From Halosolutus gelatinilyticus (GTDB lineage Archaea > Halobacteriota > Halobacteria > Halobacteriales > Natrialbaceae): a DNA stretch of 64,000 nt. The stretch's first letter is position 1, and each line of letters begins with the position of its first letter. Positions 28,264-28,641 of this stretch are shown in pieces. Below the pieces are notes generated by a model. It had not been told where the DNA came from and made no database searches. It saw only the letters and a list, made by a program, of their open reading frames with translations. The stretch covers positions 2,046,001 to 2,110,000 of the forward strand of contig NZ_CP095491.1 of NCBI RefSeq assembly GCF_023028105.1, read 5' to 3'. A program made the position numbers and the translations under genes.

Positions 28264-28360
28264 GTGCGGGGGTTCGGAGGGACCGTGCAAAAGCGTCCCG
28301 TTTCCGGTATCGGAGAGCGACTACGCGACGCGATCTTACGTAACGAGATCTGTGTCCATG

Positions 28361-28572
28361 AACACCACGAAAGCCCCTTTTATTCCCACCCGCGGTGGCA
28401 CCCCGGTCAGCCGGCACGGGTGGGGATGAAAGGGGCTGACGCTTTCGGGGAAGGAGCGCGAAGTAAGCACTGGAACAAAGTGAGGAGCACAACGAGCGAA
28501 CCGACTCGAGAGCAAAGCTCTCCCGAGCGGACGGCGCATAGCGCCGCTAACGCTAGGGGCTTTCGTTGTGTT
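28361..28572. repeat. 212-bp structured element with terminal inverted repeats
   Basis: The ends are 18-base inverted repeats: AACACCACGAAAGCCCCT at 28361-28378 and its near-perfect reverse complement (17 of 18) at 28555-28572. Just inside, 28373-28392 pairs with 28417-28436 to form a 20-pair stem in which the only two departures from perfect complementarity are G-U pairs. Two more hairpins follow: 28505-28527 (AGAGC-AAA-GCTCT extended by CTCG/CGAG) and 28533-28545 (GGCGC-ATA-GCGCC). The segment GCCCCT belongs to both the end repeat and the long stem, so two folds compete. No transposase, no good coding frame and no clear target duplication are seen. It could be a MITE-like element or a structured RNA. 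Confidence 0.7.
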
Positions 28573-28641
28573 GGCACTCCCTTCAGAACCTCAAACACGA
28601 TCGCTGCTGACCAGGGAAAAATTCTCTACGCGAGTCCGTAC

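Follow-up and report, generated by a model that had tools for sequence, protein, structure and literature searches.

Does a 212-bp segment of the haloarchaeon Halosolutus gelatinilyticus that folds strongly on both strands owe its structure to an RNA or to the movement of DNA? The segment lies at positions 28361–28572 of the 64,000-nucleotide stretch analysed here (contig NZ_CP095491.1; the window), and an earlier note, made from the letters alone, had taken the G-U pairs in its longest stem as a hint that an RNA is being conserved. We favour the DNA answer. With a probability of about 0.7, the segment is a copy of a non-autonomous hairpin-module MITE of the Halobacteriales, moved by a transposase that is supplied in trans and acts at the outer ends, most likely one of the IS66 family, with the hairpins acting as DNA.

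The structures first seen in the segment are there. The end repeats (28361–28378 and 28555–28572) are identical at 17 of 18 bases, the central stem pairs 28372–28392 with 28417–28437 and departs from complementarity twice, both times as G-U on the plus strand, and two small hairpins are present (Table 1). Folded as RNA the copy reaches z = −6.5 on the plus strand and −4.5 on the minus strand, with no shuffled sequence folding equally well, and folded as DNA it stands at z = −5.4 and −5.6 against shuffles. It is situated 97 bp upstream of one minus-strand gene, predicted from its sequence to encode an anthranilate phosphoribosyltransferase-like protein, and 69 bp downstream of another, the putative product of which is GNAT acetyltransferase-like.

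Table 1. Parts of the 212-bp copy and of its surroundings, in window coordinates
Feature	Position	Strand	Basis
Left inner inverted repeat AACACCACGAAAGCCCC (the terminal repeat of the earlier note)	28361..28377	+	Conserved family repeat
Right inner inverted repeat (AACACAACGAAAGCCCC inward)	28556..28572	-	Repeat match
Central hairpin H1, stem and conserved asymmetric loop	28372..28437	-	Model R1, 85.8 bits (minus strand)
Right side hairpin module H2	28437..28555	+	Conserved interior GTAAGCAC..GAAGTGAGG..GCAGCGAG at 28463-28505
Mini-hairpin GAGAGCAAAGCTCTC inside the side module	28508..28522		Similar mini-hairpins in other copies
Mini-hairpin GGCGCATAGCGCC inside the side module	28533..28545		Fold
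Left outer arm (tentative)	28329..28360		Family-level motif and 8-bp duplications 33-45 nt outside the inner repeats
Right outer arm (tentative)	28573..28625		Carries CTCAAACAC near 28591-28599
Candidate 8-bp target-site duplication CTACGCGA, left copy (tentative)	28321..28328	+	
Candidate 8-bp target-site duplication CTACGCGA, right copy (tentative)	28626..28633	+	

Copies in the host and in other haloarchaea

A BLAST search of the host genome with the element gave 116 matches, and sites resembling the end repeat with at most three mismatches number 110, against 12 for a reversed control pattern. On the host chromosome 35 copies have both ends paired (68–432 bp) and there are about 50 copies in all; because the genome carries so many, the folded element is more than a product of chance. 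All of the listed sites in the host are on the main contig, contigs C2–C4 having none of the listed copies, unlike another genome (G023), in which many copies are found on a second large contig. R1, the covariance model of the central hairpin that was used for the genome searches, has 55 matches in the host, some of which represent both strands of one hairpin. Within the host's family it matched 25 of 61 genomes, and across the Halobacteriales 33 of 145, spread over seven families; in a draw of 119 genomes from the phylum only Halobacteriales matched. The host's family would be Natrialbaceae, as one sampled genome (G018) and the Natribaculum breve plasmid CP095392.1 have the same hit coordinates. 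The occurrence is patchy: within the same genus R1 has eight matches in one genome and none in another. The form taken by the inner repeat in other families is CACC[T/C]CGAAAGCCCC or CAGCNNGAAAGCCCC. The suspicion that the element is dispersed is borne out: this is a multicopy haloarchaeal family of MITE type with many compensatory changes in its stems. Phage records gave no match to the element, and a scan of public genomes with the 15-base repeat was too unspecific to inform. We found no published account of the repeat in the literature covered, and the family, widespread in haloarchaea, appears to be undescribed.

All 84 copies that could be placed with a simple codon-usage gene caller are intergenic. 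Their distance to a start codon has a median of 97 bp and a minimum of 41 bp, and to a stop codon a median of 57 bp and a minimum of 31 bp; with random placement in the same gaps, about 22 ends would be expected less than 40 bp from a start codon. Purifying selection may have removed copies from everywhere except intergenic DNA at some distance from promoters and gene ends. That copies arrive by insertion is shown by empty orthologous sites, which exist in four relatives for the locus of the 212-bp copy and in relatives for 12 further loci. At several intergenic sites copies are present in more than one genus, and therefore some copies are old or some sites have been re-used. The earlier note also suggested tails of the RGFRGV type in haloarchaeal hypothetical proteins, as if gene callers had captured the end repeat. 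This was not confirmed: on the Natronorubrum bangense plasmid NZ_CP031306.1 a 50-residue hypothetical protein (WP_161569816.1) is annotated over a decayed copy (L379:614-766), but it lacks a tail of this type, and the annotated gene is probably spurious.

Modular layout and true ends

Between its inner repeats a full-length copy measures 255–280 bp and consists of an end repeat, a side hairpin, the central hairpin, a mirror-image side hairpin and a second end repeat. Copy sizes cluster at 65–99, 165–185 and 255–280 bp, which correspond to zero, one and two side arms, so that the steps of about 90 bp between copies reflect the loss of side hairpins; copies longer than this contain extra mini-hairpins. 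In one orthologous pair, 172 bp in one genome and 65 bp at the same site in the other, the change of modules is seen directly. The 212-bp copy has lost its left side hairpin, and for this reason the left end of H1 overlaps the left inner repeat. The loss took place between the AGCCCCT beside the end repeat and the AGCCCCT that opens the central stem and fused the two, which accounts for the proposal that the GCCCCT segment switches between the local stem and the far end of the element. Copies with two arms have a separate AGCCCC for each pairing, and the apparent switch is a consequence of the fusion. The stem arms of H2, TGACGCTTTCGG and TAGCGTTAGCGG, match at only 8 of 12 positions, and H2 of this copy accordingly looks like a chimera of two arm types. 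In the inner repeat, every position is more than 80% conserved over 81 ends in the host genome.

Two species of one genus have copies at an orthologous site (L310:1403-1663 and L311:1403-1671) whose entire interiors face opposite ways with respect to the flanking DNA, and one flank differs over about 45 bp. At a site shared by two genera (L309, L351 and L335, about 1400–1700) the left flank is conserved right up to the repeat and the inner hairpin arms are completely different, the arms there being rewritten much faster than the flank. In family f4 long copies of 514–719 bp (L380:1011-1729, L394:992-1505, L381:956-1489) are expanded by nested strings of mini-hairpins, with no gene; the 719-bp copy, filled with hairpins, has no recognised transposase, and among the listed end-repeat sites of the host there is no long repeat-bounded version with a transposase gene. 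Two inner end repeats at L370:1448-1504, one of them decayed, are 42 bp apart, as if one element had inserted beside the remnant of another. For a full-length copy at L303:1402-1665 two folds are available, three separate hairpins or a single one of the whole length, because its two side arms are inverted copies of each other.

The 18-base repeats were at first taken for the outer ends of the element, which they are not. There is no target duplication directly at these repeats; instead, the unit ends about 40 bp outside the inner repeat in the motif GTGTT(C/T)(A/G)G, with 8-bp duplications just beyond it in many copies. The motif (cgGTCGTGTTCGGATA) has a fixed position outside the inner repeat. 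Of 179 ends, 15 have GTGTT[TC][AG]G at precisely −41, and no other offset has it more than twice; GTGTTTAG is matched at −41 with at least 6 of 8 bases in 27 ends, whereas other offsets average 0.76. Genomes G139 and G087, from another family, share a subfamily with a strongly conserved outer arm (GGYRGTGTTTAGTTTAGCAGGAATCGCTTGCAA before CAGCCAGAAAGCCCC), and perfect direct repeats of 8–10 bp are present at the outer ends of 5 of 14 copies, where 0.15 would be expected. For copies of the host's family and other relatives that were anchored on the motif, a duplication of at least 7 out of 8 bases was seen in 6 of 29 against an expectation of 0.25, tests at fixed offsets having been non-significant until the ends were anchored in this way. 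Most copies of the host family have no intact 8-bp duplication, the outer arms have little sequence in common between copies, and a comparison of spacer lengths gave mixed support for the outer arms as part of the unit. We initially read the weak consensus in the flanks as a target-site preference, because the two flanks of one copy resemble each other no more than flanks of different copies do. This reading was dropped, and the outer arms assigned to the unit, because of the conserved outer arms and the 8-bp duplications in G139 and G087. The true ends are thus shown to lie about 33–45 nt outside the inner repeats, bordered by 8-bp target-site duplications.

For the 212-bp copy itself, the left terminal motif matches at only 4 of 8 positions, which leaves the limit of the left outer arm uncertain, and sequence outside the left inner repeat probably belongs to the inserted unit. 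On the right, the reverse complement of CTCAAACAC, GTGTTTGAG, is close to the terminal motif of the family. The pair of CTACGCGA octamers is tentatively regarded as the target-site duplication of this copy, for which, as a single case, chance might also account. Taken as a whole the family has the attributes of a MITE: it is multicopy, dispersed and under about 500 bp, has no transposase gene, has inverted repeats at its ends (the inner repeats together with the outer terminal motif at a fixed distance) and inserts with a duplication of fixed 8-bp length, a candidate only in the case of the 212-bp copy.

Pairing in DNA or in RNA

Selection for an RNA structure would strongly favour G-U mispairs on one strand. 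The asymmetric loop orients the central stem and thereby allows mispairs to be counted by strand, and over 88 copies there are 56 G-U and 61 A-C mispairs (41 and 38 in 67 copies from relatives, 15 and 23 in 21 copies from the host). No excess of G-U was found in 107 side stems either, so the argument from wobble pairs to a conserved RNA fails. A structured RNA, or a cis-regulatory element conserved as RNA, would be in keeping with the very stable folds, the compensatory changes and the occupation of some orthologous intergenic sites in several genera. Besides the mispair counts, however, a search of Rfam gave no match near the gathering score, no gene context is favoured (30 of the 84 placed copies are divergent, 43 tandem and 11 convergent) and the distribution is patchy, one same-genus genome having no copies; we regard this explanation as very unlikely.

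Pairing is nevertheless preserved, at the level of DNA. The side-arm stems include 78 distinct 12-mers in 107 arms, with a mean identity between copies of 55%, and their complementarity is 82–86% within a copy against 46–56% between shuffled copies (z of about 23, with shuffles that ignore relatedness). Covariation in the central stem is above controls, and in two genomes from another family 10 of 14 copies carry the same variable dinucleotide in both of their inner end repeats, compared with 2.8 expected. In close orthologous copies single stem changes have been left uncorrected, as if stems were well paired when a copy is new and decayed after insertion.

Haloarchaea are polyploid and have efficient gene conversion, and nothing more than gene conversion between copies, or the templated repair of imperfect palindromes, could account for the complementarity of the variable stems, with folding playing no part in movement. 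The recurrence of arm types between loci and genera would agree with this, as would the orthologous site in two genera at which a conserved flank adjoins wholly different arms. On the other hand, the agreement at the variable dinucleotides extends to inner end repeats about 220–690 bp apart, which we judge far for hairpin-templated correction, and the uncorrected changes in close orthologues are not what repair would leave. Such an origin is possible, if rather unlikely in our estimation. A further suggestion, rather doubtful, is that the stems are selected for their shape and hardly for their sequence, in DNA: the element would have to fold, as a cruciform or a single strand, in order to move or be copied, and a recombining enzyme or partner that reads the three-armed fold would give rise to fast-changing, self-complementary arms. 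The integron attC sites, for which folding is needed for movement or copying, would offer a parallel to such a role.

For the MITE that we favour, the scheme would run as follows. A transposase acting in trans, most likely of the haloarchaeal IS66 family (ISH10/ISNpe8 type), would cut at the outer ends; folding, as extruded cruciforms or single strands, would be selected or regenerated during movement; and new copies would start with well-paired stems, which decay after insertion. The family is a clean natural example of base pairing maintained in DNA with no sign of RNA selection. It warns against taking covariation in intergenic repeats as proof of a structured RNA, and the repeat provides a testable system for asking whether DNA folding matters for the movement of small archaeal elements.

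Candidate transposases and known systems

All nine haloarchaeal IS66 elements examined in plasmid records are flanked by 8-bp duplications, and seven of the nine have tips that differ at no more than one position from GTA[C/T/G]GTGTTTA[G/C]; a more distant IS66 type, represented by two copies, has the tip GTAGTTGGATAG. When octamers from the tips of IS1595, IS5, ISH3 and IS66 elements were compared with the outer flanks, only GTGTTTAG of IS66 peaked at the terminal position of the family. This octamer occupies bases 5–12 of both the IS66 tips and the repeat tips. The trinucleotide GTA with which IS66 tips begin is not shared, the bases before the octamer in the repeat being mostly GGCA, GGTA or GGCG. 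Given the same octamer at the same distance from the tip, together with the 8-bp duplications, an IS66-type transposase is the probable mover of the element. No IS66 gene was found in the approximately 375 kb of host DNA examined.

The GG at the repeat tips raises the alternative of a MITE moved by a different transposase that makes 8-bp duplications, such as an archaeal IS6-family enzyme. IS6 elements have GG tips with an internal cTGTt and duplicate 8 bp of their target, and the IS6 MITEs on record are two, of 227 and 336 bp (PMC7986276); the repeat tips in two genomes are GGNNGTGTTTAG, which fits. The IS6 consensus continues with caaa after TGTT, whereas IS66 shares the full octamer at the same offset, the IS6 side of this comparison being a published family consensus. 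The plasmid stretches examined contained no haloarchaeal IS6 element. We consider this mover unlikely. An IS1595 transposase was rejected, as PF12762 is absent from the host and three other high-copy genomes and the tips (CGCTC..) differ. The repeats might also be thought of as REP-like palindromes mobilised by transposases of the Y1 (RAYT/IS200) type, with single-stranded hairpins as the substrate, given that they are high-copy intergenic palindromes with hairpins conserved at the DNA level. PF01797 is nevertheless absent from the host and from two other high-copy genomes (G023 and G139), and the units have inverted end repeats and 8-bp duplications, neither of which Y1 elements are known to make. 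We dismissed a Y1 transposase as the mover, and regard an origin of this kind as extremely improbable.

Among known systems, REP and BIME sequences associated with RAYT proteins are likewise dispersed intergenic palindromes, but REPs are 20–40 bp long and carry a GTAG or CGTC tag (PMC3733652, PMC2817692), and the host of the repeat has no Y1 transposase. The SMR-A and SMR-B repeats of Haloquadratum walsbyi are short, haloarchaeal and bounded by inverted ends, as the present repeat is, and reach up to 54 copies per genome. They are about 80–110 bp in length, leave no target duplication, bear no likeness to a transposon and have other mobile elements as their insertion sites (PMC3119063), whereas the family described here makes 8-bp duplications and sits between ordinary genes; it is for its duplications that we do not class it as an SMR. 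BOX elements of Streptococcus pneumoniae, 67–637 bp in length, share with the repeat fixed ends, a variable number of internal modules, a mostly intergenic location and stable stem-loops (PMC3049150). They differ in sequence and in the domain of their host, and in the repeat the modules are side hairpins, mirror images of each other, the loss of which shortens a copy by about 90 bp at a time. The haloarchaeal IS66 elements ISH10, ISNpe8 and ISNpe25 have the octamer GTGTTTAG from tip base 5 and 8-bp target duplications in common with the repeat, but are autonomous, 1.56–1.65 kb long, equipped with a transposase gene and begin with GTA; the inner CACCACGAAAGCCCC repeat is absent from the 44 bases of IS66 tip read.

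There is also a close likeness to prokaryotic MITEs (reviewed in PMC10969869), including the five MITE families of Haloquadratum walsbyi (PMC3119063), which are short, lack a transposase gene and have inverted end repeats and target duplications. Their tip sequences are shared with autonomous insertion sequences, as may be the case here, and the Correia MITE, which is known to invert in place, resembles the haloarchaeal repeat in this respect too. No named MITE in the literature covered matched in sequence. What sets the repeat apart from known MITEs is its interior, which is composed of three hairpin modules with variable, self-complementary stems in a layout conserved across several families of the order.
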